Assembly: GCA_028873535.1 (NCBI GenBank)
Contig: JAGWIJ010000012.1
Span: forward strand, 1 to 44,674
Reading direction: 5' to 3'
From: Pseudomonadota bacterium
GTDB taxonomy: Bacteria > Pseudomonadota > Gammaproteobacteria > Burkholderiales > Ferrovaceae
DNA: 44,674 nt
The position numbers and the translations under genes were made by a program. The notes beneath the pieces were generated by a model. That model made no database searches, was not told the DNA's origin, and saw only the letters and a list, made by a program, of their open reading frames with translations. Of the stretch, positions 1,175 to 29,080 are shown in pieces (within the stretch, counting starts at the first letter, position 1; the number at the start of each line of letters is the position of its first letter).

Positions 1175-3954
1175 GCGCGCCGCTCGCGGAACTCGACCGG
1201 GAGCAGTGGCAGCGCCTGAACGGCCTGCTCGAAGAAGCGCTGAACCTCGATGACGCGAGCCGCGCGCGCTGGCTGGCGAACCTGCACGGAGAATCCGCCG
1301 AACTGCTGACGGTGCTGCGCCAGCTGCTTGCCGAGCATGCGGCGGGCGGTACCAGCGCGACGCCCACATACGGTGACACCCTGGCGCGCCTGATGCTCGC
1401 GGCGCTTCCGGCGGCCGACGCGCCCGGCGACCAGGTCGGGCCCTACCGCCTGCTGCACGTGCTGGGCCAGGGCGGCATGTCCACCGTCTGGGCCGCAGAG
1501 CGCGCCGACGGCAGGGTGCGCCGGCGCGTCGCCCTCAAGATTCCCCACGCCGAATGGAGCGATCGCGCACTGAGCGAGCGCCTTTCGCGCGAGTGCAAGG
1601 TGCTGGCGGACCTCAACCACCCGCACATCGCGCACCTTTACGATGCCGGCGCAGCCGACAATGGCCGGCCCTACCTGGCACTGGAACTGGTCGAGGGCGA
1701 GTCGATCGACCGCAGCTGTGCCACGCGCCGTCTCGACACGCGTGCCCGGGTCAGCCTGTTTATCGACGTGCTGGAAGCCGTGGCATATGCGCATGCGCGC
1801 CTGGTCGTGCACCGCGATCTCAAACCTGCCAACGTGATGGTGACGTCAGCAGGGCAGGTGAAGCTGCTCGACTTCGGGATCGCCAAGATGCTGGCGAGCG
1901 AGAGCGGCGTGGTGGAGGAAACCGAGCTCACGCGCCAGGCTGGACGTCCGCTGACACTGGCGTATGCGGCTCCCGAGCAGGTGCTGGGTGCTGCCGTGAC
2001 CACCGCCACCGACATCTATGCCCTCGGCGCCCTGCTGTATGAACTGCTCACCGGCGTGCGCGCCTGCAAGCCGCGCAGCAACTCGCGCGCGGCGCTGGAA
2101 GAGGCGATCCTGAGCGGCCACCCGGCTCTGCCGAGCAGCGTGGCCATCGATGCCCAGGCGGCGCGCCTGCTGCGCGGTGACCTTGACGCCATCCTGCTCA
2201 AGGCCCTGAGCACCGCGCCGGAGGCACGCTATGCCACTGCCCAGGCCTTTGCCGACGAGCTGCGCCGCTTCCTGGACGGACGCACCGTGCACGCCCGGCT
2301 GGCCAGCCGGCGTTACCGCATCCAGCGCTTCCTGGCACGCAACCGTCTGGTGGTGGGCACCGTGGTCATGATCGCTGCGGCCCTGGTGAGCGGCCTCACG
2401 ATCGCGCTGTGGCAGGCCCACGAGGCCGCCAACCAGGCCGGCATCGCGGCACGCGAGCGCGATCGCGCGCTGGCGGCGCTGGAATATCGCGATGCGGTGG
2501 ACGGCTTCCTGTCCGACCTGCTGCAGGAAGCCGGCCGGACCGGCCGCCCGGTATCGATCCCGGAGCTGATCGATCGCGCCGATGCGATGTCGGCCAAGGA
2601 GTTCGCCCAGCAGCCCGAGGCGCGTGCCGCCGTGCTCAAGACGGTCGGTGATTTCAAAGTGGATGTCGAAGGCATGCAGGCGGCCAGCAGCTATTTCGAG
2701 CGCGCCATGCAGTTGCTCGAGGGTTCGCCCGATACCGGCCTGCGCGCGATCATCGGCTGCAACCTGGCGCTGCTGCGCGGGGCATCCGGCAATGCCGGCT
2801 CGATCGACGACGCGCGCCGCGAGCTCGCCACGATCATCAGCCGCTCTGGTACCACTGCCGCCGCCGCCGTGGAATGCCTGGCCAGCCAGGCCCAGCTTGA
2901 ACTGTTCGACTTCAACGGCGCCGCAGCCGCGCATGCCGTCGCACGCGCGCTCGGGATCTGGAGCACTGCCTCGCGCCGCTCGCCGCGCCTGCATGCCATC
3001 CTGCTGCTCTTCGGTGCCGAGGCGCAATCCCAGATCGGGGATCTCCAGCAGGCCGAAAGCGGCGCCGCCGAGTCACTGGCCGAACTCCGCCGGCTGGGTG
3101 GCGACCGCGGCGAATGGGGCGCGCGCGCGCGCCTCGCGCTGATCGAATGTGCGCGCAAGACCGGCGATCCGCGCACCGCGCTCGGACTGGTCGAGGAAGC
3201 CATCGGCATTGTCCATGCCGACGTGCCGGACAGGATCATTCCGGTCTCGATGCAGGAAACGCGCGCCGCCATCCTGGCCGACATGGGCCGCTACGATGCC
3301 GCCGCCGACGCCTACCTGGAGGGTTTCGGCGCATCGAATGGCGGCGACCGCTCGGTCGGCGAGCGGCTGCTGCTGGCGGCGGCGATGGCGGAAGCACGTG
3401 CTGGCCGGATCGACGCCGCCGAACGACACTACCGCCAGGCAGTCGCTCTGGCCAATGCAGCAAGCGGTGCCAGCGCGTCGGCCCACCAGTACCGACTGCG
3501 TGCGCGCGCCGTGCTCGACCTCGCGCAAAGCAGCTTCGCGAGCGCGGCGCAGACGCTGACGGCCGCCCTGGCCGTGGCGGGCACGCCAGCTTCCAGCCTG
3601 GCGATCCTGCAGGCGCTGCGCGCCGAGGCCCGGCTGGGCACTGGCGCTCTCGCCGAGGCCGCACAGGACGCCAGGCAGGCACTCGAACTCGACCTGCAGA
3701 TGCAGGGCGGCACGGCCTTCTCGGCGAGGGTCGCGCGCGACCGCCTGCTCCTCGGCCGGATCGCACTGGCGCAGGGCGACGCGGCCGCCAGCCACGCCGA
3801 CCTGGTCGATGCCGAGCGCCAGTTCGCGGCCGCCATCGGCGACGATGCGGCCTGGACACGCCAGGCGCATGATCTCGCCAGCCGGGAGATCGAAGCACAG
3901 GCAGCGATGCCGCTCCACCCTGTTGCCCTTCAGCTCGAGGAAAAGCCAAAATGA
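1171..3954 (+). CDS. Membrane Ser/Thr protein kinase with C-terminal TPR-like sensor region
   Basis: This is a 927-residue PknB-type kinase. The glycine loop LGQGGMSTVW starts near residue 97, followed by the ATP lysine in VALKIPH, the catalytic loop HRDLKPANV near residue 213, DFGIAK and the APEQ segment. All key catalytic residues are present, so it should be active. A single transmembrane helix spans about residues 393-415. The roughly 500 residues after it are Ala-rich paired helices resembling TPR repeats, likely periplasmic and sensory or scaffolding. The GTG start overlaps the stop of the ECF sigma gene, and the stop overlaps the ATG of the next small gene (ATGA at 3951-3954), so three genes form one operon. 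Confidence 0.93.
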   Translation: MSAPLAELDREQWQRLNGLLEEALNLDDASRARWLANLHGESAELLTVLRQLLAEHAAGGTSATPTYGDTLARLMLAALPAADAPGDQVGPYRLLHVLGQGGMSTVWAAERADGRVRRRVALKIPHAEWSDRALSERLSRECKVLADLNHPHIAHLYDAGAADNGRPYLALELVEGESIDRSCATRRLDTRARVSLFIDVLEAVAYAHARLVVHRDLKPANVMVTSAGQVKLLDFGIAKMLASESGVVEETELTRQAGRPLTLAYAAPEQVLGAAVTTATDIYALGALLYELLTGVRACKPRSNSRAALEEAILSGHPALPSSVAIDAQAARLLRGDLDAILLKALSTAPEARYATAQAFADELRRFLDGRTVHARLASRRYRIQRFLARNRLVVGTVVMIAAALVSGLTIALWQAHEAANQAGIAARERDRALAALEYRDAVDGFLSDLLQEAGRTGRPVSIPELIDRADAMSAKEFAQQPEARAAVLKTVGDFKVDVEGMQAASSYFERAMQLLEGSPDTGLRAIIGCNLALLRGASGNAGSIDDARRELATIISRSGTTAAAAVECLASQAQLELFDFNGAAAAHAVARALGIWSTASRRSPRLHAILLLFGAEAQSQIGDLQQAESGAAESLAELRRLGGDRGEWGARARLALIECARKTGDPRTALGLVEEAIGIVHADVPDRIIPVSMQETRAAILADMGRYDAAADAYLEGFGASNGGDRSVGERLLLAAAMAEARAGRIDAAERHYRQAVALANAASGASASAHQYRLRARAVLDLAQSSFASAAQTLTAALAVAGTPASSLAILQALRAEARLGTGALAEAAQDARQALELDLQMQGGTAFSARVARDRLLLGRIALAQGDAAASHADLVDAERQFAAAIGDDAAWTRQAHDLASREIEAQAAMPLHPVALQLEEKPK

Positions 3955-9509: not shown

Positions 9510-9815
9510 TCACGCTACGCGCTTGGCCTTGTCCAGCGCGATGCGCTCCAGCGTTTCGGCCATCGCGTCGCGCGCAGTCTCGGTGTCGTAGTGCGTCTGC
9601 AGATTGATCCAGCTCTGCGCATCCGTCCCGAAGTAGGCCCCGAATCGCAGTGCCGTATCCACGGTGATCCCACGCAGGCCCTTCACAATTTCATTGATCC
9701 GCCGCGGCGGCACACCAATCCCCTTGGCCAGCGCGTACTGGCTGATACCCATCGGCTTCAGCCAGTCCTCAGCGAGGATGACGCCAGGATGGGCCAGGGG
9801 AATTTCACGAGACAT
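9510..9815 (-). CDS. higA: HigA-family antitoxin
   Basis: This 101-residue DNA-binding antitoxin has a helix-turn-helix of the HigA/VapI type. It opens with the typical HPGVILAEDWLKP, followed by GISQYALAKGIGV and INEIVKG, with the conserved tail RFGAYFGTDAQSWINLQ. It neutralises HigB and represses the operon. It lies 12 bp downstream of higB in the same operon, the usual toxin-first order. It is full length for the family. Confidence 0.93.
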   Translation of the reverse strand: MSREIPLAHPGVILAEDWLKPMGISQYALAKGIGVPPRRINEIVKGLRGITVDTALRFGAYFGTDAQSWINLQTHYDTETARDAMAETLERIALDKAKRVA

Positions 9816-17190: not shown

Positions 17191-18381
17191 TCAGATTTGC
17201 GCGAAAGTGGACGACAGCAGCGGCAGATAGGTGACCACGAAAAATGCGCCGACCAGGACCGCCGCGACCAGGGTGGACACCACGCGTACCAGATGTTCCT
17301 GACGCACGCTCAGCTCGCTCACATCCTCGGCCAGTCCGGCCGCGAGCGAACGCAGGCCGGCCACGACATCCCCGCCACTGTCGGCAGCCTGCACCGAGCG
17401 GGTCACATGGCGCGGAAAGCCGGCGCGCGCAGCGGCCTGCGCCAGCGGCCACCCGGCGCGCAGCTCTCGCCCCAGGGCTGCAAACCAGCGCCGCAGCTTG
17501 GGGCGCGTGGCTGCCTGTTCGAGCAGCCGGCAGCCCTCCTCGACGGCCACACCGGCGTCATACAGGGTCGCAAAGCCGTTCCAAAGACTGGCCAGCTCCG
17601 AGCGTTCCAGCAGTTGTTCGACCACCGGTATGCGCTCCCACAGCAGCGCCGCGTGGCGGCTGCGCAGCAGCCACGCGCACAGCACCGGCAGGGCCAGCCA
17701 CAGCAGCGTGAACGGCACGGGATGGCCATGGACCCATCCGGCAAGGTCGAACATCGCGGTCGCGAAGGCGGGCAGTCCAGTGGCGCCGAGCGCCGCATAG
17801 AATCGGGCCATGGTGGGCAGGAACACCATCAGGGCCAGGTAGAGTCCGGCATGCAGCAGCAGGGCCACCGTCAGCGGCATCTGCAGACAGCGGCGCAGCG
17901 CGGCGGCAAGGCGCTGCCTGCGCTCGAGGTCGGCGGCCAGCACCAGCAGGGTTTCCGGCACCCGGCCGGTATCGGACACCGCATCCAGCGCCGCGGCGTC
18001 GTGCTCCGGAAAGCCGGCCGAACGCATCGCCACCCCGATGCGCCGGCCTTCACGCAGTCCGTGCGCGAGCACGGCGATGGCCTGCGCGAGCCGCGCGTCG
18101 CCGACGAATTCCTGCGCCTGCTCGAGGCCCGGCTGGACCGCTTGGCCGCCCTCCAGGCGCCGCCCCAGAGCGCGATAGAAAGCCACCAGGTCGCGCGTGC
18201 CGAATTGCGGATGCCACCACGCGGCGAGCGTACGCACGGGATCATGCCGGATGCTGATCGGCTCCTGGGCAAGCCGATGGCGCAGGCGGAAGTAGGCTTC
18301 GGCGGCGCTGCCGGCGTAGAGAATGCCCTGCACGATGCGCCCGTCGCTGGCGCGCGAACGATGCACGTAGGCGTGAATCAT
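17191..18381 (-). CDS. pilR: Type IVb pilus/type II secretion platform protein (PilR/GspF family)
   Basis: This 396-residue inner-membrane platform protein works with the PilQ-type ATPase in pilus extension. It carries two GspF domains, each with conserved acidic helix pairs (FYRALGRRLEGGQ and LERSELASLWNGFATLYDAG). Membrane segments lie near the middle (LPLTVALLLHAGLYLALMVF and a second helix) and at the C-terminus (LVAAVLVGAFFVVTYLPLL). The ATG at 18381 overlaps the stop of the ATPase gene (ATGA, 18378-18381), which fixes the start. It is the last gene of the hybrid cluster. No pilin or prepilin peptidase follows. Confidence 0.92.
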   Translation of the reverse strand: MIHAYVHRSRASDGRIVQGILYAGSAAEAYFRLRHRLAQEPISIRHDPVRTLAAWWHPQFGTRDLVAFYRALGRRLEGGQAVQPGLEQAQEFVGDARLAQAIAVLAHGLREGRRIGVAMRSAGFPEHDAAALDAVSDTGRVPETLLVLAADLERRQRLAAALRRCLQMPLTVALLLHAGLYLALMVFLPTMARFYAALGATGLPAFATAMFDLAGWVHGHPVPFTLLWLALPVLCAWLLRSRHAALLWERIPVVEQLLERSELASLWNGFATLYDAGVAVEEGCRLLEQAATRPKLRRWFAALGRELRAGWPLAQAAARAGFPRHVTRSVQAADSGGDVVAGLRSLAAGLAEDVSELSVRQEHLVRVVSTLVAAVLVGAFFVVTYLPLLSSTFAQI

Positions 18382-20135
18382 GCCGCGCCGCCGTCGGCAC
18401 GTCCGAGCACGCGCTCGAGTTCTTCGAGTGACGTCCGTCCCGCCGCGAGCAGCCGCTCGCCGCTGTGCCACATGGTGCGTCCCGCCAGATAGCCTGCGTC
18501 ACGCAGCGTATCCGAGGGCGCGCCGGCCAGCACCGCTTCACGCACACGCGGGCCGGACACCAGCAGCTCGTGGACCATCACACGACCGCGGTAACCGCTC
18601 CAGGCGCACTGCGCGCAGCCGCTGGCGCAGGCACGGCGCATGGCCGGCCGGCGGGCGTCGGCGCGTGGATCCGTCTCGGCGCAGGCCTCGCAGAGCGTGC
18701 GCACCAGGCGTTGCGCCAGCACCGCCAGCAGGGCGTCGGCAAGGTCCGAAGGATCGACACCCAGGCGGCGCAGACGCCCGATCGCCGAGGCGGCGCTGTT
18801 GGCATGCAGCGATGTCATCACCAGATGACCCGTGTTCGCACCATCCATGAGGGTGCGCGCGGTGTCGCCGTCGCGCACCTCGCCCATCAGGATCACGCGC
18901 GGTGCATTGCGCAGCAGCCCCTTCAGCCAGCGCCCCCATTCCTGGCCTTCGTGGTCGGCCAGCCGGCGCACTTCGTACTGCATCCAGAGTCCGTGGTGGA
19001 ACTCGACCGGGTTCTCGATCGACTGCACCGACACCTGTTCCGGGTCGATGAGCTTGAGCAGGGCATACAGGGTGGTGGTCTTGCCGGACCCGGTCGGCCC
19101 GGTGATCAGCAGCAGACCGGAACTCTGCTGGACCAGGGCGCGCAGGGCCAGGGCGGTGTCGTCGTCGAAGCCCAGGCTGTCGAAGTCGGCAGTGGCGCTC
19201 TCGCGATCGAGCAGGCGGATCACCGCCGTGCGGCCTGAGCGCGCGTGCCCCAGTTCGATGCGAAAGGCGAAGCGTGAGAACAGGCTGCCGTCGGCGCCAC
19301 CGGCCAGCTCGGAGGTATCGAGCGCGCCCTCGCGCAGTCCGGCCTGGCGCAGCTCGTCCTCGCGCGCGCGCGCATCGTGGATCAGCCGCGTCAGCAGACG
19401 CTCGTAGCAGGCTTCGGGCAGGATGCGGAAGACCTGCCCGATCCCGTCGACCGTCAGGCGCACCAGGCCGACCCGCCCGCTGCGATGCAGGTGGATGTCG
19501 CTGGCGCCTGCCAGGCAGGCGTGGCGCAGCAGCGCGACCAGCAGGTCGCGGATTTCGCGACCTGATCCCGCCTCCGCCGCAACGGCGGCGTCGCCGTTAC
19601 GGCCACGCGGCTGCGGCGCGCGTGGCAGGAAGGACTGGAGCGCCTCGTCGAAACGCTGCTCCGAAGCCGAATAGCAGGCGCCCCAGATCCGGCGGATGCT
19701 CTCGCGCGAAGCCACCACGAAGACACAGGGAAAGCGGTGGAAGGCGTTGCCGGCCGGCCGGATGCGCGCGGCCTCGTCGATGGCCACGGTCAGCGTTCTG
19801 CCGTCCCAGTCGACCGGCACGTAGCCGGCGTCGTCGCTGACCTCGAGCCGCAGCGCCGCCATGCGCGCGGTCGCGACCTGGCGTGCCTGTTCCGGCCCGA
19901 AATACGGGAGATCGCCGTGTTCCAGGGAATGTGCACGCGCCACGCCTTCGCCGGACAGCAGACCGAAGTCGGCCAGGATGCCGGCCAGATGCTCGCCGGT
20001 CAGTTCCGCACGCAGCCTGGCCAGACGGACATGGTTGGGTGCCACGCCCAGCCCCGCCAGCACGGCTTCGATCGGACGTGCGCCGCCGCTGCCCGGGAGC
20101 ACGCGCAACAGCGGAGCGGCATCCCGCGTGCTCAT
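18378..20135 (-). CDS. pilQ: Type IVb pilus assembly ATPase (PilQ/GspE family)
   Basis: This 585-residue hexameric motor ATPase has an N-terminal GspE-like domain of about 160 residues. The ATPase core carries the Walker A motif GPTGSGKTTTLYAL, Walker B/Asp box ILMGEVRDGDTA and His box GHLVMTSLHANSA. A zinc-type four-cysteine module near the C-terminus (CEAC ... CAQC) is typical of assembly ATPases. All catalytic motifs are intact. It is the only ATPase in the cluster; no VirB4, VirB11 or VirD4 is present. Its ends overlap both neighbours by ATGA, so it is tightly coupled in translation. Confidence 0.95.
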   Translation of the reverse strand: MSTRDAAPLLRVLPGSGGARPIEAVLAGLGVAPNHVRLARLRAELTGEHLAGILADFGLLSGEGVARAHSLEHGDLPYFGPEQARQVATARMAALRLEVSDDAGYVPVDWDGRTLTVAIDEAARIRPAGNAFHRFPCVFVVASRESIRRIWGACYSASEQRFDEALQSFLPRAPQPRGRNGDAAVAAEAGSGREIRDLLVALLRHACLAGASDIHLHRSGRVGLVRLTVDGIGQVFRILPEACYERLLTRLIHDARAREDELRQAGLREGALDTSELAGGADGSLFSRFAFRIELGHARSGRTAVIRLLDRESATADFDSLGFDDDTALALRALVQQSSGLLLITGPTGSGKTTTLYALLKLIDPEQVSVQSIENPVEFHHGLWMQYEVRRLADHEGQEWGRWLKGLLRNAPRVILMGEVRDGDTARTLMDGANTGHLVMTSLHANSAASAIGRLRRLGVDPSDLADALLAVLAQRLVRTLCEACAETDPRADARRPAMRRACASGCAQCAWSGYRGRVMVHELLVSGPRVREAVLAGAPSDTLRDAGYLAGRTMWHSGERLLAAGRTSLEELERVLGRADGGAA

Positions 20136-20668
20136 GATCCGATCAGCTCAAGCAGCAACTGGACGCGCTGGTCCTCCAGCCAGACGCGCCGGAAGCTCAG
20201 CGGCAGGCTGCCCAGCGCGGCCAGCCAGGCCTGCAGACCAGCATAAGTACGATAGGCTGCACGCACATCCACGTGCAGCAGGCGCAGGCCTTCGACGCCG
20301 GGCTTGCGGTGCGCCAGGGACAGCAGCAGCTGCGCATCCGGCGGCCCCTCGGGCGGCGCCCCCGTGCGTCCCGGCAGGCTCAGTGCCTCGACGCGCACGC
20401 CGTGGCGCGCATCCCCTTCGCGCAGCTGGGCCAGCACGTCCACCACGGTTTGTGCCAGCACCGGCAGGTCTGCTTCGGCCGGCCCGAGCCCGGCCAGCAC
20501 CCGCGCACGTTCACGCAGCCGTGGCAGCGTGTCCCGGCCCTCGTTCTGCTGACGGCGCAGGCTGCGCTGACGCGCTCGTACCTCGAGTCCTGCGCTAAGG
20601 CTGATCAGCAGCCACGGCAGCGAGCGCAGGAAGCGGCGTTTCGCGTCTGAAACGGAGGTAGTAGGCAT
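20132..20668 (-). CDS. Bitopic pilus assembly protein (PilP/GspM-like architecture)
   Basis: This 178-residue protein starts at ATG 20668, supported by a GGTGGAG ribosome-binding site. It has a short basic N-terminus and one membrane helix (RSLPWLLISLSAGLEV), then a coiled-coil-like Arg/Glu/Leu stretch. A small alpha/beta domain ends in RRVWLEDQRVQLLLELIGS. This shape matches GspM/PilO alignment proteins of type II secretion and type IV pili. Sequence alone does not identify the family member. It overlaps the preceding gene by 74 bp and the ATPase gene by ATGA. Confidence 0.6.
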   Translation of the reverse strand: MPTTSVSDAKRRFLRSLPWLLISLSAGLEVRARQRSLRRQQNEGRDTLPRLRERARVLAGLGPAEADLPVLAQTVVDVLAQLREGDARHGVRVEALSLPGRTGAPPEGPPDAQLLLSLAHRKPGVEGLRLLHVDVRAAYRTYAGLQAWLAALGSLPLSFRRVWLEDQRVQLLLELIGS

Positions 20669-21770
20669 TGAGGTCTCCACCGATGGCCGGATCCAGGGCG
20701 TGCACGCCTGCCGGCAGTTCCGCGCCACCAGCGTCGAGCGTCGCGCGCAGCGGGTGCGGCAGCCAGCTGCTGCGGCCGGCCGATGGGCGTGCGTCCGCCG
20801 GCCCCGGCTGGGCCAGCCGCAGCGTGTAGTCGATGTGATCCGGAAGCGCGAGTACCTGGACCCGGGTGCCCGGTCGCCAGAGCGCCTCGGCATCGCGGAA
20901 CAGATGGGCAAGATCCACGGTTTCGCTCCACGCCAGAGCCCGCAGGTGCTGCCGCAAGCCCTGCTGGATCACCCCGGCGAGCTGTCGGCGGGTGGCCTGG
21001 GCCTGCTGCGCCTCGACATGGGCCGACCAGGCGTCGAAGGCGCCCCACATCGACCACCCCAGCGCGAGCGCCGAGCACGCAAGACTTGCGCGCTGGCCCG
21101 CCTGCCACCAGCACCGCAGCGGCAGCTCGAACAGTTCGTCCTCGTCAGGATAGGGACGCAGCAGCGCCAGCACGTCCGCGGCATCGTGCTGGTCGAACCA
21201 GATCGGCTCGCCCGTCGCGGGAGTCACCGCAAGGCTGCGGCAGAATTCGTCGACCAGATAGTCCAGCGCAGGCGGATTGGCGGCCTCCTGGAAGCCCTGC
21301 AGTTCGCCCTGCGCATCGTAGGCGAACAGCAGCACCAGGCGGCGTCCGTTGCCATCGCCCGCGCCAAGCCGCAAGCCCAGCACACGCCCGGCCGGATCGA
21401 CCGCGCGCAGCAGCGCCAGCTGGTCCATCAGCTGCAGCCCGGGCACCAGGCGGCACCCGGCCGGCCTTGCCACCGACTGGCCGGGATCGCGGCCGTAGAC
21501 GGCGCCAAGGTCGCGTGCGCGATTGACCAGCCGCACGGCCTCGCCCCACTCGCGCATGAAAGCCAGCCGCGCCTGCCGGGACGAGCGCTTCTGAAGCGCG
21601 CGCAGGCGGTGGTCGTGCTGGTCGAAGCTGACCAGGACTGCGGCATCGCGCGCGACCTCCGGCACCTCGATGATGCCCGCCGGACCGACTTCCCAGAACA
21701 GGCGCCGTCCGATCAGCAGGCTGACATGGAAGGTGGCGCCTTCCGCGCCGCCGCCCTGCCGCGGCGTCAC
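20595..21770 (-). CDS. Bitopic inner-membrane pilus assembly protein (PilO/GspL-like)
   Basis: This 391-residue protein has a long cytoplasmic N-terminal region (about 1-235) with HVSLLIGRRLFWEV and LVSFDQHDHRLRAL. One membrane helix lies near residue 245 (ASLACSALALGWSMW), followed by a periplasmic helical/ferredoxin-like region. Its place between the secretin and ATPase genes equals that of PilO in R64-type thin pilus operons. The architecture equals PilM/N or GspL proteins, which link the ATPase to the envelope. By-eye similarity to PilO2 is weak, so the family name is inferred from order and topology. Its ATG overlaps the secretin stop (ATGA, 21767-21770). Confidence 0.6.
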   Translation of the reverse strand: MTPRQGGGAEGATFHVSLLIGRRLFWEVGPAGIIEVPEVARDAAVLVSFDQHDHRLRALQKRSSRQARLAFMREWGEAVRLVNRARDLGAVYGRDPGQSVARPAGCRLVPGLQLMDQLALLRAVDPAGRVLGLRLGAGDGNGRRLVLLFAYDAQGELQGFQEAANPPALDYLVDEFCRSLAVTPATGEPIWFDQHDAADVLALLRPYPDEDELFELPLRCWWQAGQRASLACSALALGWSMWGAFDAWSAHVEAQQAQATRRQLAGVIQQGLRQHLRALAWSETVDLAHLFRDAEALWRPGTRVQVLALPDHIDYTLRLAQPGPADARPSAGRSSWLPHPLRATLDAGGAELPAGVHALDPAIGGDLNAYYLRFRRETPLPALAAVAADQP

Positions 21771-23392
21771 AGCGATTCTCCCACCAGCACGCGATAGGCC
21801 CGGGCGGGCACGATGTTGGCATGGATCAGCAGCACGAGTTCCTTGCGCGAGCGGCCATCGTCATAGCCGTTGAGCAGCCTGCTCACGAAGGGGATGTCGG
21901 CAGTGCCGGGGACGCCGCGCGTCGTGCCGCTGTCGCTGACGGCGCGTGTGCCGCCGACGATCACGGTCTTGCCGCTTTCGACGATGACCTGCAGGTGCGC
22001 CTGGCGCACCGGCTGCCGCGGAACGCTCAGGCTCGCCCCGTTGCCAAGGTCGAAGGACTGGAAATCGCTGACCGTCGAAAGGATGGGAATGACCGACAGC
22101 TGGACCAGCTGCTGGTCCAGGATGTCGGGGCGAAACGCCAGGCTGACGCCGTCGAGCGCGAAGCTCACCGCGCCGCTGTTGCTGGTGGTGCCCGCCACGC
22201 CGGTGACCGTGCTCGCGACACTTCCCAGGTAGGGCACCTGGGTGCCATCGTGGATGATGGCGGGGCTGTGGTTGAGCGCGATCAGGCGCGGCTGCGACAG
22301 CACATCGACGCGCGTGAACTGCTCGAGCGCCTTGATCACGGCAGTGGTGGTCTGGTTGGTGATGGTGGTGGTGAGGCTGGGCGAACTGACCACGCGACCG
22401 TTGGAGATCTGCACATTGGCGTTGGCGCCGGTCCCGAGCAGGCCGCGCAGGCCGATCACGCGCGACCAGTCGATGCCGAACTGGAACTGCTGTCCCAGCG
22501 TGACCTCGAGCAAGGACACCTGGAGTTCGACCTGGCTGCCGGCATCGCGCACGTACTGCTCGAGGAAGCTGCTGACCCGGCGCAGATCCTGGGCGCTGCC
22601 GTGGACGGAGACCATGCCGCTGTCCGGCAGAATGGCCACCTGTGCGGGACCGCCAGCCATGGTCACCAGGAAACGCCGCAGTTCCTCGGGATCGTGCAGC
22701 TGGCGCGACTGCACGCCGAAGTCGGCGGCCAGCGCCTGCCCGGCGCCACTCCCCGCCGCACCGCCGACCGCCGCACCGCCGACCGCCGTGCCAGCGGCCG
22801 GCGTGCCGGCGGTGGCTCCGGCTGCACCGCTTCCGGCATGGCTGCCAACGGCGTACTGGGTCAGCAGATGCTGAAGCAGGTGCGGCGGCAGCCGGTAGGT
22901 GTAGGTCGCATGCGTTGCCAGCGTGACCGAGTGCGAGCCGCGGTCGAGGATGGCGGCGTAGCCGGCCGCAAACGCGATTTCCTTGACCGCCGGTTCGAAT
23001 TCGAGACTGCGCAGATCGATGGTGACGGTCTGGCGCCCCTCCACGCCCGACGCGAGCTGCAGGCTGAAGCCGGCCTCCTGGCAGATGCCGCGCAGCAGGG
23101 ATTCGAGTGGCGCACGCACCACGCGAACGCTGATGGCGCCGCGCCCGCCGGGTTCGAAGTCGACTGCCTGGGCACGCACGTAGGGGCCCTCGACCTGCGT
23201 CACCTGACTGCCGGCTTCGTGCATGAGATCGTCCAGGCGTCCCGCCATCGCCGGCGCAGGATCGAGCCTTTCCCGCGGCACACCGGCGCAGCCGGCGAGC
23301 ACGGCCAGTGCCAGAGCGGCCGGCCACAGCACCGGCGCGCCAGCCGCCAAGGCGGCATGGCGCCGCCTTGGCGTCACGCCGGCACGGACCAT
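21767..23392 (-). CDS. pilN: Outer-membrane secretin lipoprotein (PilN family, type IVb pilus)
   Basis: This 541-residue secretin has a lipoprotein signal with lipobox LAGC. An STN-like domain follows (APLESLLRGICQEAGFSLQL), then an N1-type repeat and the secretin beta domain (LFRPD-type GVSLAFRPDILDQQLVQL, GTQVPYLGSVAS, and GKTVIVGGTRAV near the end). It should form the gated outer-membrane pore through which a pilus or substrate passes. A Gly/Ala/Val linker around residue 205 is encoded by 15-bp tandem repeats. The start lies 2 bp after the stop of the TcpQ-like gene. Confidence 0.93.
   Translation of the reverse strand: MVRAGVTPRRRHAALAAGAPVLWPAALALAVLAGCAGVPRERLDPAPAMAGRLDDLMHEAGSQVTQVEGPYVRAQAVDFEPGGRGAISVRVVRAPLESLLRGICQEAGFSLQLASGVEGRQTVTIDLRSLEFEPAVKEIAFAAGYAAILDRGSHSVTLATHATYTYRLPPHLLQHLLTQYAVGSHAGSGAAGATAGTPAAGTAVGGAAVGGAAGSGAGQALAADFGVQSRQLHDPEELRRFLVTMAGGPAQVAILPDSGMVSVHGSAQDLRRVSSFLEQYVRDAGSQVELQVSLLEVTLGQQFQFGIDWSRVIGLRGLLGTGANANVQISNGRVVSSPSLTTTITNQTTTAVIKALEQFTRVDVLSQPRLIALNHSPAIIHDGTQVPYLGSVASTVTGVAGTTSNSGAVSFALDGVSLAFRPDILDQQLVQLSVIPILSTVSDFQSFDLGNGASLSVPRQPVRQAHLQVIVESGKTVIVGGTRAVSDSGTTRGVPGTADIPFVSRLLNGYDDGRSRKELVLLIHANIVPARAYRVLVGESL
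22753..22788. repeat. 15-bp tandem repeat in the secretin gene
   Basis: CCGCCGCACCGCCGA occurs twice in tandem from 22753 to 22782, followed by a partial third unit. It encodes repeated AVGGA residues in a flexible linker of the secretin. The unit is a multiple of three, so gain or loss changes linker length without shifting the frame. Confidence 0.7.
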
Positions 23393-23394
23393 GG

Positions 23395-24861
23395 TCAGCG
23401 TTCCCCGCCGGACACGGCGACCACCAGGTTGCCGCTGTAGAGCACGGCCGACAGGCGGTATTCACCCAAGGTCTGCAGCAGCACCTGCTTCAAGGTCGGC
23501 GCCCGCACCACGTAGCCGCGCCGCACCACGAAGTCGCTCTGGCTTTCCCATTCCAGCCGCCATCCCAGGGTCTCGAGGAAGTTTCCGAGCGCCTGCGACA
23601 GGCGCTGGTTGTCGCGCACCTCGAAGACCAGGCTGTCGTTGCGCGGTGCTGCCGCATTTTCGCCAGACACGGGCGCCGGCGCTGCACTGCCGGCATCGCC
23701 AGCACCCGCTGCACTTGCCGCGGGCACCAGCGGCAGCGCCGTCGCGCCGGTCGCCGGCGCCGCAGGACCGCGGTCCTGGCCCGCTGGCGCTGTGGTCTCG
23801 TCGTCGGCGACGGCCTCGTCACGCAGCGGAACGTCGCTGCGCGGGCGCGTGTCGGCCAGCGCGTACAGCGGACCTTGCGCCTGGCGCTTCCGCACAGGTG
23901 CATGCCGCGCCGTCCTGGCCGGCGGCGTGGTCCCGGCATCGGCCAGGCCGACTTGCTCCGGCACGGTCACCGGCATCACCGACAGGTCCTCGAACACGCC
24001 GCGCAGGCGCGCCTCGAGTTCGGCATCCCCACTGCTGTGCGCACGCGCGAGCATGGCGCGCGCCTGCTCGAGCATGGCCACCAGTCTGCCGTCGGCAAAC
24101 GGATCGCTGACGGACAAAGGCCGTTCGGCAAGCTGGCGCTCGGCCGCGTCGGCATCCGTGAACCGGGCGGACGCTGCAGCTTCGTCGTCGGCGTCCTCCT
24201 CGCTGACGGCAAGCATCGGGCGCGCCGCAGCCGCTGCAGTACCGGTGGACGCGACCGGCGCCGACTGCGCCGCGATGGCGCTGCGGCCGCGACCGCTTTC
24301 GTGGCTCGGCCGGACGGCGCGACTGCTGGCTACCGGCCCCGGCGGATCGTCCGGCCCGAATGGCGCGTTGTCGGTCCAGATGCGCGGCCTGGCCGTGGCA
24401 GCGCGCGGCGGAACACGTGCCTTCCACGCCTGGTTGACGAGCACGGTATCCTCGCCATCCAGCACCAGCCGCAGGCGCGGCACCACGTCGTCAACCACGA
24501 CATAGGGCGACTCCAGGTGGAAGCGGATGCGGCGCGCGTCGGCGCGGCTCTTGCCGTCCTCGGTCCACAGTTCCGGCACGCGGTCGAGCGCGTTGAACTG
24601 CATGTAGGTGCGATGACCGTCATCGAATACCTGCGTCGGCGCCGCGCCGCGCGCGCCCTCGGAACGGTAGGCGAAGTTGAAACCGTGCGCCGCCGGCGCG
24701 CCCGGCGACGGCGGCGGCGCAATGGCGGCTTGGGCCACACCGGCCCAGCCGGCGAGCAATGCCATGCCGAGAATCGGCAGGCCGGCGCCGCGGGACACCT
24801 GCCCCCATCCGCAGACCTGCTGCCCGTCAACCCGGCAGTGGTGCTCTGGAATCCTGGCCAT
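23395..24861 (-). CDS. Fusion of VirB9 C-terminal-like domain and TcpQ-like domain
   Basis: This 488-residue exported protein starts at ATG 24861, fixed by the ribosome-binding site GGGAGGAGC. A signal peptide ends near residue 45 (LGMALLAGWAGVAQA). Residues about 55-140 match the C-terminal domain of VirB9: FNFAYRSEG, PTQVFDDGHRTYMQFNALD and PYVVVDDVVPRLRLVLDGE. About 250 residues of Ala/Pro/charged low-complexity linker follow. The last 80 residues resemble TcpQ/PilL secretin-partner domains: SLVFEVRDNQRLSQALGNFL, GWRLEWESQSDFVVRRGYVV and LKQVLLQTLGEYRLSAVLYS. The architecture suggests a periplasmic bridge between a VirB-type core and the secretin encoded next. Confidence 0.8.
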   Translation of the reverse strand: MARIPEHHCRVDGQQVCGWGQVSRGAGLPILGMALLAGWAGVAQAAIAPPPSPGAPAAHGFNFAYRSEGARGAAPTQVFDDGHRTYMQFNALDRVPELWTEDGKSRADARRIRFHLESPYVVVDDVVPRLRLVLDGEDTVLVNQAWKARVPPRAATARPRIWTDNAPFGPDDPPGPVASSRAVRPSHESGRGRSAIAAQSAPVASTGTAAAAARPMLAVSEEDADDEAAASARFTDADAAERQLAERPLSVSDPFADGRLVAMLEQARAMLARAHSSGDAELEARLRGVFEDLSVMPVTVPEQVGLADAGTTPPARTARHAPVRKRQAQGPLYALADTRPRSDVPLRDEAVADDETTAPAGQDRGPAAPATGATALPLVPAASAAGAGDAGSAAPAPVSGENAAAPRNDSLVFEVRDNQRLSQALGNFLETLGWRLEWESQSDFVVRRGYVVRAPTLKQVLLQTLGEYRLSAVLYSGNLVVAVSGGER

Positions 24862-25059
24862 GCTGCTCCTCCCTGTCGATCGGCCTGCCACCGGACGTGA
24901 CGGACCCGCTCCGGCGCACCGCCGCGCGCCACCACATTGCACACCCTCGGGGCCAGCAGCGAAGCCCGGAAAAGCACGGTTGCATCGATCTGCTGCAGAC
25001 GATCATACGTCGCTGCGCGGCCGATGATACCGGCCTTGCCTGTGCCATTGGGTTGAGAC
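24862..25059. other. Only long gap in the secretion/pilus gene train
   Basis: This 198-bp interval separates the transglycosylase stop from the VirB9/TcpQ fusion start. It contains no gene I can support. It is the natural place for an internal promoter that would separate the virB-like half from the pil-like half, but no clear -35/-10 pair is visible. Confidence 0.4.
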
Positions 25060-26040
25060 TCATGGCCCGCATCCCGGCGCGTCTGCGACCTGGGGTTGAG
25101 CAGAAAGGCTGAGCCCTCCGGGGGATGATTTCGCGAATGCGCTGACGCGCTGCAGGTACTGGCGCCCGGCATCGGGCCGCGCGCTGTGGTAGCGCGCAAC
25201 TGCCAGCGCGAGGCTGCCGGAGCGTCGCCATTCCTCGCACAGGATGTCGGCCGCCACCTCCTGGTTCACGTCGGGATCGAGCGCCTCCCACAGGCTGGCA
25301 AAGCGGCCAGCGTGATAGTGCCAGTTGACCTGCATCAGTCCGATGTCGAGACGCTGCTCGCCGGTCCGTTCGATCGCGCGCAAGGCCGTCCAGGCCTCGC
25401 GCCGGCTGGGGAAACGCAGCGGCCGGCCGGCCACGTTCAGGGTCCAGGGCCAGGGTGCACCGGACAGCGCGCTCTCCGCCATCGCCACGCCGTACAGCAC
25501 TTCGGCCGGGATACCGCGGCGCGCAGCCAGTGGCCGGAAGCGTTGCAGCGCCCGGCCGCATTCGCCCCAGATGCCGCGTCCCTCGGCGCGCGCCTCGCGC
25601 GCTGCCCAGGCGTACGATTCCGGCAGTCGTGCCGGCTCGCCCGGCGCGCCACCGGGAAACGCCTGGCCGGCACGCAACAGCACGAACGCCCAGTCGAGCA
25701 CACGGCCGTTCCATGCAAACCGGACACTGCGCGCACCCCAGGCGTCGGCACCACCGAGCTGCAGCCGCGTACCGACCGGCAGCACGCGACGCGCCCATGC
25801 CAGGTGCCGCTCGGGCTGGCACACCGGATCATCACGAACGCCGCGCACGCTGAATTGCCAGGTCGACCCTCCGCTTTCCACGGTCAGATCCACGGGACTG
25901 GCCAGCGCCAGCAGGCGCGCCTCGACCAGAACCGCCGGCGGCGGCTCGGCCAGGCGCGCGGCGGCCCGGGCACCCTGCAGCAGAAACAGTTGCAGGACCA
26001 GCACGATGCAGTGTCCTCGCGGTGCCAGGACAGACGTCAC
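25060..26040 (-). CDS. Lytic transglycosylase with N-terminal nuclease-like (SNase-fold) domain
   Basis: This 326-residue exported protein has a signal peptide ending near GARAAA. Residues about 40-155 resemble a staphylococcal-nuclease-fold domain: WQFSVRGVRDDPVC, VRFAWNGRVLDWAFVLLRAG and SYAWAAREARAEGRGIWG. The usual catalytic Arg/Glu set is not obvious, so it may only bind. Residues about 165-300 are a type IV secretion lytic transglycosylase (VirB1/PilT type): IPAEVLYGVAMAESALSG with the catalytic Glu, RLDIGLMQVNWHYHAGRF and YHSARPDAGRQYLQRV. It should open peptidoglycan for the envelope complex. Its start overlaps the VirB10-like stop by ATGA (26037-26040). Confidence 0.85.
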   Translation of the reverse strand: MTSVLAPRGHCIVLVLQLFLLQGARAAARLAEPPPAVLVEARLLALASPVDLTVESGGSTWQFSVRGVRDDPVCQPERHLAWARRVLPVGTRLQLGGADAWGARSVRFAWNGRVLDWAFVLLRAGQAFPGGAPGEPARLPESYAWAAREARAEGRGIWGECGRALQRFRPLAARRGIPAEVLYGVAMAESALSGAPWPWTLNVAGRPLRFPSRREAWTALRAIERTGEQRLDIGLMQVNWHYHAGRFASLWEALDPDVNQEVAADILCEEWRRSGSLALAVARYHSARPDAGRQYLQRVSAFAKSSPGGLSLSAQPQVADAPGCGP

Positions 26041-27566
26041 GGCGCGTCCACCTCGGGCAGGATCAGGTCGCGATTGACCATCACCTGGAAGGCACTGCCA
26101 CGCCGGATGATCAGGGTCGGGGCAAGGCCGCCGACACTCTGCAGCCCGGTGCGCGCGGTATCGACCAGGATCTGTCCGGTGGCATCGGGTCCGGGCAGGA
26201 CTCCGCCGCCGGGCGCACTGCTGCCGACCGTGCCATCGCCACGCTGCGCCGCGCGTGCCAGCCCGGCAGTCATGAACGCCTGGCCGAAGCGACGCCAGAA
26301 ATGGGTGTCGACCTGATCTTCGAGGCCGGCACTGCCGAGCCGGTCGGCGGCCTCCATGCGCTGCAGGTCGATGCTGGCGCCGCCCGGCAGGATCATGCGG
26401 TGGAAGCTGGCCATCAGGCGCTGCTGACCGGCGCCAACCTGGTTTTCGTAGCGGCCGATCAGGCGCGTGCCGCGCGGAATCAGGCGGCGCTGACCGGACA
26501 CGCTGTCGTAGACGTCCTCGGCGACCTGGGCGACGATCATTCCCGGCAGGTCCGATCGCAATTCATTGAGCAGCACGCAGCTGATCGGCGTGCCTTCGGC
26601 CACCATGGGTCCGTCAGGCGCCGCTGTCCAGCTGAACCGGCCCTTGGCCTGACGCGCCGCCGCCGCGGTGTCCAGCGGCGGCTCCGCTTGCACGCCGGTG
26701 CCGGCAACGGCGGCGTCGGCCGCGCGGCCCAGCGATAGGGCAGCCGGGACGGCGCTCAGCAGATCCGGCACCGAATGCAGCAAGGCCGCGAGCTGGTGCA
26801 GCTTGTCGGCATGCGCGCCGCCCGGCGCCGACGCCGTGGCGTCGGGCCAGCCCCCCTCTGCGGCGCCGGCGTGACTCAGCGCCAGGATGCGGCTGCCGGC
26901 CACCGTGGCCTGCACGCGCGCCTGCTCCTCGTCGACCACGGCGGGCTCGCGACGCGCCGCATTGGCGGGCGCTGCCAGCAGACCTGGCGGCAGATCCAGC
27001 GCCTCGGCCGGAATGGCGGCCTCGGCGCGCGCTGCCACGTCCGCCGGCGCTGCGGCCGCCGTTGCCAGGTCAATCATGCGCGACGCCGACGGTGCGCGCG
27101 CCTGGGCTGCCGGCAGGCGCCCCAGCGGCCCTCCCGCAATGCCCCCCCCATCAACGCCCTTCTCGCGCGACAGTTCGCGCTGCAGGACGTGCAAGGGTGG
27201 CGCCGGTTCGCTCGCCGGGTCGTGCACGGGATGCGCAGCCGCTGATGGTCCTGACGTCCCGCGCGACAGCCAGGCCTGCGCGCCGAGCGTCAACAGGGCG
27301 ATCAGTCCCAGACCGAGGGCAAACCAGATATGCAGATGGCGCGGCAGCTTGCGTGCACCATCGAAGTCGTCGGACGCCGGGCCTTCGAGGTCAGGAACAA
27401 GGCCGGCGCCGGCCGCGTCGATGAACGCCGACCGCTCGGCCCCAGCGCCCGTGCCGGCAGAATGCGCCAATGCCGCCGCCGTCCCTGCCGCCAGATCGGC
27501 GGCAGGCGGGTCTTCCCAGTACGGCGCTGGGTCGGGATCATCTGGCATCACTGTGGATTCATCCAT
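26037..27566 (-). CDS. virB10: VirB10/TrbI-family type IV secretion core protein
   Basis: This 509-residue protein spans both membranes in type IV secretion systems. It has a cytoplasmic N-terminus of about 75 residues and one helix at about 78-100 (HIWFALGLGLIALLTLGA). A long Ala/Pro-rich periplasmic linker follows. The C-terminal TrbI domain runs from about residue 325: ISCVLLNELRSDLPGMIVAQ, VYDSVSGQRRLIPRGTRLIG and GGASIDLQRMEAADRLGSAG, ending with VNRDLILPEV. Length and order are typical. The start lies 15 bp after the VirB9-like gene. Confidence 0.93.
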   Translation of the reverse strand: MDESTVMPDDPDPAPYWEDPPAADLAAGTAAALAHSAGTGAGAERSAFIDAAGAGLVPDLEGPASDDFDGARKLPRHLHIWFALGLGLIALLTLGAQAWLSRGTSGPSAAAHPVHDPASEPAPPLHVLQRELSREKGVDGGGIAGGPLGRLPAAQARAPSASRMIDLATAAAAPADVAARAEAAIPAEALDLPPGLLAAPANAARREPAVVDEEQARVQATVAGSRILALSHAGAAEGGWPDATASAPGGAHADKLHQLAALLHSVPDLLSAVPAALSLGRAADAAVAGTGVQAEPPLDTAAAARQAKGRFSWTAAPDGPMVAEGTPISCVLLNELRSDLPGMIVAQVAEDVYDSVSGQRRLIPRGTRLIGRYENQVGAGQQRLMASFHRMILPGGASIDLQRMEAADRLGSAGLEDQVDTHFWRRFGQAFMTAGLARAAQRGDGTVGSSAPGGGVLPGPDATGQILVDTARTGLQSVGGLAPTLIIRRGSAFQVMVNRDLILPEVDAP

Positions 27567-27581
27567 GTCTGGCCACCCGCC

Positions 27582-28397
27582 TCAGCGCCAGAATTCGGGC
27601 GGCGGTCCCTGGACCTGACGCGCGCCGCCCGCATGGCGGCTGACGCGCACTTCGGCACGCCCGGAGCGCAGCACCCAGGCCTCGGCCACGCGCGGCGCGA
27701 CCAGCCAGTCACCGCGCACGGCGAAATGGACCATGCGCTCGCCGTCTGCGTCTTCGCCGAACAATGCCGGCATGAGCTCGCCGCGCGGCAGACGCATCCA
27801 GGTGGTGCGTCCATCGTCGAACACGGTCGCCGGCCGGAAGACGGCCTCGCCGGAGATGCGGTAGTCGAAGTCCAGTTGCGCCGGATCCATGCCCGGCGCA
27901 GCCGCATGCGTCACACTGGCGGGCGCGCGCTGCGCCAGCCTGCCCGGCGTGACCGCGAGTGGCGGCGCCGGCACCTGTTCGGCGTCGTGCGCCAGCAAGC
28001 CCGGAACGGCCGCGCGCAATGCGACGATATCGGGATAGCTCCAGCTGACGCGCTGCATCCAATCGTCGTGGGCGCGTCCGCTGCGCAGCGTGAGCTGATA
28101 GGTGCGCCGATCGGTGACCAGGGTGCCCGCCGTGAACAGGTCTGCCTTGAGGGGCTTGATGAACACATGTCCGGGCAGTTCCTCGACCATCCACTGGATG
28201 GTGTCACCCAGTGCAAAGCCGCTCACGTGCTCGTCCGCGCCGAGCTGCAGATCGGTCGGCACGCCCGGCAGCGTGAGGATGGCGTAGCTCGACTCGGCAT
28301 CGTAGCGGAAGCGCTGCGTGCGGCTGGCGCCGTCGACAGCTGCGACCGCGCTGCCCGCGAGCAGACAGATGGCCATGGCGGACGCCAGCCGTTTCAC
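27582..28397 (-). CDS. virB9: VirB9/TrbG-family type IV secretion core protein
   Basis: This 271-residue exported protein has a signal peptide ending near GSAVA. The N-terminal VirB9 domain shows TQRFRYDAESSYAILTLPGV, LGADEHVSGFALGDTIQW and LFTAGTLVTDRRTYQLTL. The C-terminal domain shows LDFDYRISGEAVFRPATVFD and TWMRLPRGELMPALF. It should form the outer-membrane layer ring with VirB10. It is one of two VirB9-like proteins in the cluster; this one has both domains. No VirB7 lipoprotein gene was found. Its ATG overlaps the VirB8-like stop (28394-28397). Confidence 0.93.
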   Translation of the reverse strand: MKRLASAMAICLLAGSAVAAVDGASRTQRFRYDAESSYAILTLPGVPTDLQLGADEHVSGFALGDTIQWMVEELPGHVFIKPLKADLFTAGTLVTDRRTYQLTLRSGRAHDDWMQRVSWSYPDIVALRAAVPGLLAHDAEQVPAPPLAVTPGRLAQRAPASVTHAAAPGMDPAQLDFDYRISGEAVFRPATVFDDGRTTWMRLPRGELMPALFGEDADGERMVHFAVRGDWLVAPRVAEAWVLRSGRAEVRVSRHAGGARQVQGPPPEFWR

Positions 28398-29080
28398 CGT
28401 TCCAGGTCCTCGCCGACCTGGAAATCGGTCACCAGCAGGCCGATCGGATTGCGCAGTGCGGCATCCTCGCTGTCGGGCGCGCTGGTCTGGAAATGGATGG
28501 TCAGCAGACGTTTGCGGCGCTGCGCGTTGGGCCGCCCCAGGCTGCGTTCCTCGCAGGCCACGCGCACCAGTGCGACGTCGTCGTCGACCAGCGAAATGCC
28601 GAGGATCTCGACGCTGCGCGTCAGCGAGGGATCATCCTTCAGGTGCTGCAGCGGCGCCGTCGCGTGCAGCCAGTCGGTGAATTCCACCGTGGCCTTGCCG
28701 CGCGTCAACTGCCAGGCCTCGGCCAGCCACGCCTCGCTGAGGCGCGCATCAAGCGCCAGCAGGTGGCGCACCCACTGTGCCAGGAAGTAGCGCCGCTCCG
28801 GCGCGCCAGGGCGGTAGGGCAACAGACGCGCTCCCGCCGGAACCACCGAGCCGTCGCCTTGCGCCTGCAGGATGAAAGGCCGGATGGTGCGGCCGTTGGC
28901 GACCACCACCAGCCCGGTGGTGGCCAGCAGGAAGGCTGCGCCAAACACGCACGCCAGCACCAAGTTGCGCCGCGCATCGACATCGGCGCCGCTCTGCCGG
29001 CGCAGCCAGCCGGGCGGTGCGAGCAATTCAGCGCCGGGACCGGAAGGCTCGGAAACGGGAGGTGTTGCGGACGGTGGCAT
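28394..29080 (-). CDS. virB8: VirB8/TrbF-family type IV secretion assembly protein
   Basis: This 228-residue bitopic inner-membrane protein has a cytoplasmic N-terminus and one helix at about 38-60 (LVLACVFGAAFLLATTGLVV). Its periplasmic NTF2-like domain is typical of VirB8 (YFLAQWVRHLLALDARLSEA and IHFQTSAPDSEDAALRNPIG, then LLVTDFQVGED). It should nucleate assembly with VirB9/VirB10. It is the first gene of the cluster. A 6-bp hairpin (CCCTCG/CGAGGG) lies immediately before the ATG, with a GAGGG ribosome-binding site in its 3' arm. Confidence 0.9.
   Translation of the reverse strand: MPPSATPPVSEPSGPGAELLAPPGWLRRQSGADVDARRNLVLACVFGAAFLLATTGLVVVANGRTIRPFILQAQGDGSVVPAGARLLPYRPGAPERRYFLAQWVRHLLALDARLSEAWLAEAWQLTRGKATVEFTDWLHATAPLQHLKDDPSLTRSVEILGISLVDDDVALVRVACEERSLGRPNAQRRKRLLTIHFQTSAPDSEDAALRNPIGLLVTDFQVGEDLER

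Follow-up and report, generated by a model that had tools for sequence, protein, structure and literature searches.

A gene train joining VirB8-VirB9-VirB10 to type IVb pilus genes in a Ferrovaceae bacterium, a probable part of an apparently domesticated three-locus transfer system

We analysed a 44,674-nucleotide contig (JAGWIJ010000012.1 of assembly GCA_028873535.1) from a bacterium of the family Ferrovaceae, related to iron-oxidising acidophiles. This whole stretch, here called the window, is the entire contig C176 of a draft genome (G000) of 3.43 Mb in 193 contigs, 92.9% complete. It carries a minus-strand run of ten genes at 29080-17191, g1 to g10, that unites homologues of VirB8, VirB9 and VirB10 with an assembly set for a type IVb pilus (T4bP). 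Our data indicate, with a probability of about 0.7, that the window is locus A of a chromosomal system in three loci, derived from a Trb/VirB conjugation system that is accompanied by a T4bP. The class is recurrent and little described, and here it takes an apparently domesticated three-locus form. From gene content, gene order, homology, co-occurrence and predicted domain folds we infer assembly, substrate, tethering and domestication. Genomes, contigs and loci are given as G, C and L numbers.

The gene train and its parts elsewhere in the genome

The genes of the train are as follows, all on the minus strand.

28394..29080, minus: g1, VirB8/TrbF-like inner-membrane scaffold (Pfam VirB8, 3.8e-23)
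27582..28397, minus: g2, VirB9/TrbG outer-membrane core subunit (Pfam CagX, 9.2e-51; NCBIfam VirB9, 4.8e-31, below its curated cut-off)
26037..27566, minus: g3, VirB10/TrbI outer-membrane core subunit (Pfam TrbI, 1.1e-48)
25060..26040, minus: g4, putative VirB1-like lytic transglycosylase (SLT, 0.0013, below its curated cut-off)
23395..24861, minus: g5, orphan VirB9 C-terminal domain (VirB9c) with a TcpQ/BfpG-like domain (Pfam CagX, 1.2e-12; TcpQ, 8.5e-7)
21767..23392, minus: g6, secretin (Pfam Secretin, 3.5e-25)
20595..21770, minus: g7, PilO2/BfpC/GspL-like platform protein (fold match)
20132..20668, minus: g8, small protein in the PilP position, start uncertain (position)
18378..20135, minus: g9, GspE/PilB-like assembly ATPase (Pfam T2SSE, 1.8e-75; MshEN, 3.3e-5)
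17191..18381, minus: g10, GspF/PilC-like platform protein (Pfam T2SSF, 1.8e-23; ATGA overlap with g9)

The original prediction, made from the sequence alone, described ten same-strand genes mostly joined by ATGA overlaps or gaps of 15 bp or less, and the gene coordinates agree with this. Five of the nine junctions are 4-bp start/stop overlaps and two are gaps of 2 and 15 bp. The exceptions are g7/g8, with a 74-bp overlap, and g4/g5, with a 198-bp gap if g5 starts at the ATG at 24861.

The VirB10 gene, g3, is the sole VirB10 match in the genome. The lytic transglycosylase predicted earlier is a weak call by its SLT match, backed by position and by g4 homologues at the equivalent position in L022, L030, L071, L073 and L074. 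Membership of g6 in the MSHA pilus was not supported in NCBIfam, where its best match, MshL, scored 160.6 bits, under the curated cut-off of 250.2. Cys35 of g6 is invariant across all ten aligned secretins, the window's own counted, and lies in a putative lipobox-like context. For g7, no curated family in Pfam or NCBIfam was above cut-off, and Foldseek alone gave nothing at E <= 0.001. VIA-align matched its predicted model (mean pLDDT 82) to GspL (5tkw, Z 8.8), to PilO2Bp (4bz0, Z 8.5, 151 residues aligned, 3.9 Å; barely over the score level that VIA-align calls common) and to BfpC (3vhj, Z 6.0). Judged from this model, g7 appears to be a PilO2/BfpC-type actin-like platform protein, one of the marks of a T4bP. 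No family in Pfam or NCBIfam matched g8, which has homologues at the equivalent position in L024 (31%) and L065 (45%).

VirB4, VirB6, VirB11, VirD4 and a pilin had been described as absent, which holds for the window and fails for the genome. Locus B, on contig C22, has the order VirD4/TrwB-like, VirB11, VirB2, VirB3, VirB4, TrbJ-like (VirB5) and TrbL/VirB6; the Pfam matches are those of the G301 and G302 proteins, tblastn having located the G000 copies. VirB11, VirB2, VirB3, VirB4 (PF03135), VirB5-like and VirB6-like genes occur in this second locus in all five genomes of the genus, and the VirD4/TrwB-like gene occurs in four, the G302 contig stopping before that position. The VirB/Trb-type set of a type IV secretion system (T4SS), VirB4, VirB6, VirB8, VirB9 and VirB10, is all present in the window's genome.

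Pilins had been expected elsewhere in the genome, and they were found at locus C on contig C193. This locus holds a pilin, pilin-2, a PilT-like ATPase (a second pilus ATPase) and a third pilin, in the order found behind GspF in relatives. The major pilin is 42% identical to the G048 pilin (Pfam N_methyl 5e-8 for the latter), the minor pilin matches N_methyl at 1.3e-5, and the ATPase and third pilin have Pfam matches, pilin-2 being without one of that kind. One prepilin peptidase is encoded in G000, on C29. The orphan genes that the original prediction proposed to look for exist for the pilin, the prepilin peptidase and VirB4, and for VirD4 as a VirD4-like gene; the relaxase on the same list was not found in the classes searched, MOBH and MOBP. 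By homology, the T4bP set of pilin, assembly ATPase, GspF and prepilin peptidase appears complete across the window, C193 and C29, and g5 and g6 provide a secretin with a TcpQ/BfpG-type partner (Pfam and fold match).

A TraG-like PF02534 match at G000:C68:5420-5992 is found in none of the other four genomes of the genus and perhaps belongs to another element. An FlhD-like regulator gene (PF05247, L110:3288-3602) adjoins locus B, and FlhC-family genes lie near the plasmid transfer regions L198, L201, L209 and L210; a flagellar-type master regulator may control the transfer genes.

Recurrence of the gene order in relatives

The g7 protein has a match in 12 of 300 genomes, its own counted. Among the other 11, VirB8-9-10 lie beside pil genes in G048, G057, G008, G088 and G220 and do not in G016, G164 and G180; G161, G129 and G293 offer only fragments or a short contig. 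The same order of VirB8-9-10 beside pil genes is therefore present in five of the eight order-level relatives with enough context, and on these sequences the gene order is not a product of chance. The union of a VirB8-9-10 core with a T4bP assembly set, claimed earlier for this one genome, thus recurs. VirB4 lies inside the same cluster in G048, G088 and G220, and in G008 and G057 its locus shares a contig with virB8 at a distance of roughly 10-27 kb. In G048 and G220 the train, VirB4, VirB11, the VirD4-like gene and a MOBH relaxase are together on one contig. Two plus-strand genes of other kinds stand between virB10 and the VirB9c gene at G057:C212:16540-19788 (L023), where the train is otherwise intact. 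A G164 protein weakly matched to VirB9 by tblastn had no Pfam match, and VirB10 matches among phage sequences were three unannotated faecal contigs.

Scanning named genomes with an alignment of ten secretin sequences yielded 21 loci, of which 14 (33-66% identity) were taken as true relatives and seven as distant secretins. VirB8-10 are adjacent in seven of the 14 and absent within 10 kb in six, which include Variovorax sp. WDL1 and L142, the latter checked up to the contig end; one locus is on a cut contig. Seven of the 14 repeat genomes from the g7 search, and L147 and L150 come from one metagenome-assembled genome. The original prediction asked whether the virB-like and pil-like halves always co-occur; they stand together in five of eight order-level relatives and apart in these six loci. 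In L139, L141, L142 and L143, all without VirB8-10, the TcpQ part was matched and VirB9c was not. These four share upstream genes (p404 in 4/4, p174 in two), a second context for the T4bP module.

On plasmids, VirB4 of the window's genome matches 3856 records, with an Azonexus hydrophilus plasmid at the top rank, and a second-VirB9 query matches 66. Seventeen plasmid stretches were examined and 16 of them, all but Flagellatimonas, were searched with hidden Markov models (HMMs) built from the genome loci. VirB8-10, VirB9c and GspE occur together in seven: Azonexus, pTK9001, pBN2, B. glumae p2, pRK1-1, pMOL28 and pHG1, six of which have a secretin HMM match. Across these 16 stretches no best match at 1e-3 came from the g7, g8 or TcpQ HMMs, and only one, in pTK9001, from the pilin HMM; the plasmid PilO2, PilP, TcpQ and pilin labels are NCBI annotation, with TcpQ also found by Pfam for Azonexus and pRK1-1. 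The pNK84 and pIII stretches of 18 kb contain the VirB4 operon only, and pTY921B is split by the record start, its secretin and second VirB9 being at the other end of the same circle. Plasmid p1 of Vibrio parahaemolyticus D3112 (L213 13726-31698, MOBC-typed) has VirB9, VirB10, secretin and GspE matches and no VirB9c. The Flagellatimonas stretch has pilus-type genes and no annotated VirB gene, by annotation only. Five control plasmids with VirB8-10 (pLec-476cz, pAKD4, a Xanthomonas plasmid, pBII_1 and Paracoccus pPAN3) had no pil-gene or VirB9c match.

A VirB4 tree of 27 hand-picked rows, rooted at the midpoint and with G220 as a long branch, places the window's genus on a 21-row side with support 100/100. 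Sixteen rows of this side have a T4bP, three are unknown (among them pNK84 and pIII) and two, G301 and G302, are without. The other side consists of the five controls without T4bP and Vibrio p1. G166 was scored as T4bP-bearing on its locus C pilin (84%); no g7 or close secretin was found there, its locus A contig ending in the transglycosylase.

Chromosomal site, function and alternative explanations

The train is flanked by what we take, from their translations, to be core genes: above it sodB at 29224, followed by ybiB-, ferredoxin-, trxA-, rho- and rpmE-like genes, and below it hydrolase-like and aceK-like genes. Each of the five genus genomes has VirB8-9-10 beside sodB. In G166 and G300 a large additional gene on the opposite strand separates sodB from virB8 (L073:4543-6414, L074:1604-3715); it is absent in the window, G301 and G302. 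VirB8 is matched in 26 of 32 genomes of the family and in all eight genera, the match in G087 (25% identity) being weak and the only one in its genus. Outside the genus, 20 stretches were taken from 20 of the 21 VirB8-matching genomes. A sodB-like gene (62-67% alike) is beside virB8 on the opposite strand in eight, ferredoxin-trxA-rho without sodB is near virB8 in two, and neither is found in ten. Because sodB is inverted or absent near virB8 in other genera, the neighbourhood there is, by this sequence comparison, similar but rearranged. The transglycosylase, TcpQ and pil genes were found in none of these 20 stretches, several of which are short. Elsewhere in the window are genes that we take to encode a HigA-like antitoxin (9510-9815) and an ECF-sigma/kinase-like pair (617-3954).

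A MOBH relaxase (PF07514) was found in none of the five genomes of the genus, whereas all five order-level relatives with VirB8-10 and T4bP have one (G048, G220, G088, G057 and G008), in G057 and G008 on another contig than the train. A MOBP relaxase was found in none of ten genomes, conjugative relatives included, so this result has low weight; the search was for MOBH and MOBP, with MOBF, MOBQ and the remaining classes outside it. With its sodB site, its presence across the family as judged by VirB8, and no MOBH or MOBP relaxase found, the system looks domesticated.

G301 and G302 keep the VirB genes and have only distant secretin and locus C pilin matches, and the G302 locus runs past the VirB9c-TcpQ gene into other genes. 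These genomes appear to have lost the pilus and retained the T4SS; they are sisters, so this is one event at most. Between them dN/dS was 0.06 for VirB4, 0.08 for VirB11, 0.08 for TrbL and 0.11 for VirB9, compared with 0.01 for sodB, VirB8 and TrbJ being saturated. These ratios point to strong purifying selection on secretion genes in the two pilus-less genomes. With some of its members lacking the pilus and keeping the T4SS, the genus offers a natural experiment on the role of each half.

The train would be an outer-envelope operon, and the Trb/VirB T4SS and the T4bP would be inherited as one transfer system. Locus A is predicted to supply VirB8-9-10, the transglycosylase, the VirB9c-TcpQ adaptor, the secretin, the PilO2-like protein, the PilP-position protein, GspE and GspF. 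Most likely, GspE and GspF would assemble a pilus that passes through the secretin, extends to a partner cell or surface and retracts onto it. The substrate would then be translocated by the VirB machine, powered by its own VirB4, VirB11 and VirD4-like ATPases. In the plasmid relatives the substrate is the element's own DNA. As neither a MOBH nor a MOBP relaxase was found in the genus, the machine is here probably domesticated for a protein or a non-self-mobilising DNA substrate.

Several points weigh against this explanation. The relaxase could have been missed in a draft of this completeness and fragmentation. Beside the VirD4-like gene, p300 (L110:4109-5011, with homologues in L109 and L112 and no Pfam family) remotely resembles plasmid TraI (hhalign probability 83%, E 9e-6, in one comparison); it could process DNA and is perhaps a relaxase remnant. 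The T4bP module occurs without VirB8-10 nearby in six loci, so the pilus and secretion halves are separable. Vibrio p1, which has a VirB and secretin train, groups with the controls in the VirB4 tree, so linkage to a T4bP extends beyond a single VirB4 clade; T4SS and T4bP seem to have come together, or stayed together, more than once. Evolution is also faster in the locus A pil genes, with dN/dS between the window and G300 of 0.28 (secretin) and 0.48 (g7), which may reflect relaxed use. Synonymous sites are close to saturation in the dN/dS comparisons.

A special case of the domesticated transfer system is contact-dependent secretion of protein effectors, as by the bacteria-killing T4SS of Xanthomonas, with the pilus as a grappling hook. 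The retention of the VirD4-like gene (4/5) and of VirB11 and VirB4 (5/5), with no MOBH relaxase found, is compatible with this, but the structural similarity between VirB9c and VirB9 of X. citri does not discriminate, since conjugative VirB9s match equally. We consider this function possible, although unlikely. A chance meeting of two degraded mobile elements, or the decaying remnant of an integrated conjugative element, would suit the relaxase result, the spread of parts over three contigs, the pilus half not found in G301 and G302, and the faster evolution of the secretin and g7. It fits poorly with the open frames, the same order across many lineages, VirB8 in 26 of 32 family genomes (one weak) and the selection on the VirB genes, and we judge it improbable. 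Scattered parts together with an order unique to one genome had been named as the signature of chance; scattering is indeed seen here, but the order occurs widely, and juxtaposition by chance was dismissed because of this recurrence.

Slightly less probable again is DNA uptake, in which the T4bP would capture DNA and a ComB-like VirB core would import it. A type IV pilus (T4P) with a PilT-like ATPase does stand alongside a VirB core, and uptake is among the functions listed, in passages of a review (PMC12857230), for systems lacking VirD4. However, the VirD4-like gene and VirB11 are kept here, while the reviewed uptake systems are without VirD4, and the close relatives are conjugative plasmids. 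To the idea of the original prediction that a pilus ATPase drives a VirB8-9-10 shell without VirB4, VirB11 and VirD4, none of which is in the window, we give almost no weight: powering by GspE was dropped after all three (VirD4-like) were found on C22, VirB4 and VirB11 are in 5/5 genomes of the genus and the VirD4-like gene in 4/5, and in G301 and G302 the VirB genes persist beside no more than distant matches to secretin and pilin. With the system's own motors present in the second locus, there is no indication that the VirB core is driven by GspE.

The VirB9c-TcpQ protein and comparison with known systems

The fusion of a VirB9 C-terminal domain to TcpQ, predicted earlier for g5, was confirmed by both Pfam matches and by fold. 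The AlphaFold model of g5 has two confident domains (residues 62-149 and 408-484) connected by a linker that is mostly of low confidence. Residues 62-149 match VirB9CTD of R388 (Z 12.3, 86 aligned, 2.4 Å) and X. citri VirB9 (Z 9.9). The second domain, residues 408-484, matches a chain of 88 residues in the T4bP BfpBG complex, assumed from its size to be BfpG (Z 6.8, 77 aligned, 3.2 Å); this Z is below the tool level of 8, and the Pfam TcpQ match agrees with it.

VirB9c is also joined to TcpQ in G302, G008, G220 and G048; the TcpQ matches of these relatives reach 20-22.5 bits against a cut-off of 27, and CagX of G048 is below cut-off at 18 bits. G057 carries VirB9c without a Pfam TcpQ match. 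Other tails were found. An OmpA tail follows VirB9c in pBN2 and weakly in G048 and G088 (the loci include L201 and, below cut-off, L029), and a DotD tail follows it on the Azonexus plasmid in the g5 position (L198:16745-18019; CagX below cut-off). In pTK9001 the best VirB9c match is a gene annotated as TcpQ (9e-7), perhaps another VirB9c-TcpQ fusion. A tblastn search of plasmids with g5 at 1e-5 gave no match; homologues on plasmids were detected with an HMM made from the VirB9 portion of g5.

VirB9c of g5 would probably lie in the VirB9/VirB10 ring, with the TcpQ domain binding the secretin or forming an extra ring domain. G302 keeps TcpQ although a search for a secretin of this type found none, which suggests that TcpQ also serves the T4SS ring and makes tethering only one possible role. 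It could be that g5 fills part of the role of the VirB7 lipoprotein. A bolder proposal makes g5 and related proteins a dedicated coupler between the two machines, fixing the T4SS outer-membrane ring to the T4bP secretin or turning both into one composite portal, so that pilus retraction passes the captured partner, or substrate, straight to the T4SS. The odds are clearly against this proposal. If it were true, orphan VirB9 C-terminal domains whose tails can be exchanged (TcpQ, DotD, OmpA) would be a previously unrecognised adaptor family, belonging to a 'sui generis' conjugation class and domesticated in Ferrovum-like bacteria. As a candidate bridging protein in two parts, g5 makes the joint working of T4SS and pilus testable.

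Passages of one paper (PMC4971541) report that TcpQ is required for the stability and outer-membrane localisation of its secretin, and BfpG for multimer formation or stability. The pairs BfpG/BfpB and TcpQ/TcpC are likewise a TcpQ/BfpG partner for a T4bP secretin (PMC4971541), and the fusion to a VirB9 C-terminal domain is the feature of g5. No publication naming both TcpQ and VirB9 was found in a literature search that did not extend to the first descriptions of the plasmids pHG1 and pMOL28, so an earlier report of the fusion or the class is conceivable.

According to extracts of three papers, the IncI plasmids R64 and TP114 have a T4SS plus a thin T4bP as a contact or mating-pair-stabilising device (PMC12857230, PMC7508951, PMC9045228), and the T4P of TP114 is required for gut transfer (PMC7508951, PMC9045228). 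The IncI T4SS is described there as Dot/Icm-like, in a cluster separate from the pilus genes (PMC12857230), whereas the T4SS of the window is VirB/Trb-type and in one train with pil genes. The original prediction called a VirB9/VirB10 ring beside a secretin puzzling. The combination is special, but it is less puzzling given that IncI plasmids encode T4SS and T4P as two machines (PMC12857230). In the PAPI-1 chimera, T4SS ATPases are thought to work with the T4P, and VirB4 and VirD4 are the only clear T4SS homologues in the same extracts (PMC12857230); the window differs in having VirB8-9-10. Ferrovum has VirB/D4 genes at several loci, with VirB1 and VirB7 absent, and no link to a pilus was seen in the main texts ('type iv pil', 0 occurrences; PMC4725956, PMC4886054).

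The MOBH systems of pMOL28 and pHG1 share with the window the VirB4 clade and the gene run. One run, virB8-virB9-virB10-SLT-second VirB9-LT-TcpQ-secretin-(PilP/PilO2 or unnamed genes)-GspE-GspF-pilin, is like locus A. It is divergent from a second run, virB11-B2-B3-B4-trbJ-virB6-TraI-TraD and beyond, and the divergence point corresponds to the break between loci A and B of the window's genome. VirB9c and TcpQ are separate genes in pMOL28 and pHG1 and fused in the window. The window's system is chromosomal, in three loci and with no MOBH relaxase found, whereas those of pMOL28 and pHG1 are plasmid-borne with a TraI-domain protein and PLSDB type MOBH, plasmid or integrative carriage being a further point not shared. 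The function of the pMOL28 pil region was left open in 2010, including whether it is "a sui generis conjugative system", in the passages of PMC2864759 that deal with it. Our comparison ties this locus to a class of T4SS with T4bP on several plasmids and chromosomes.

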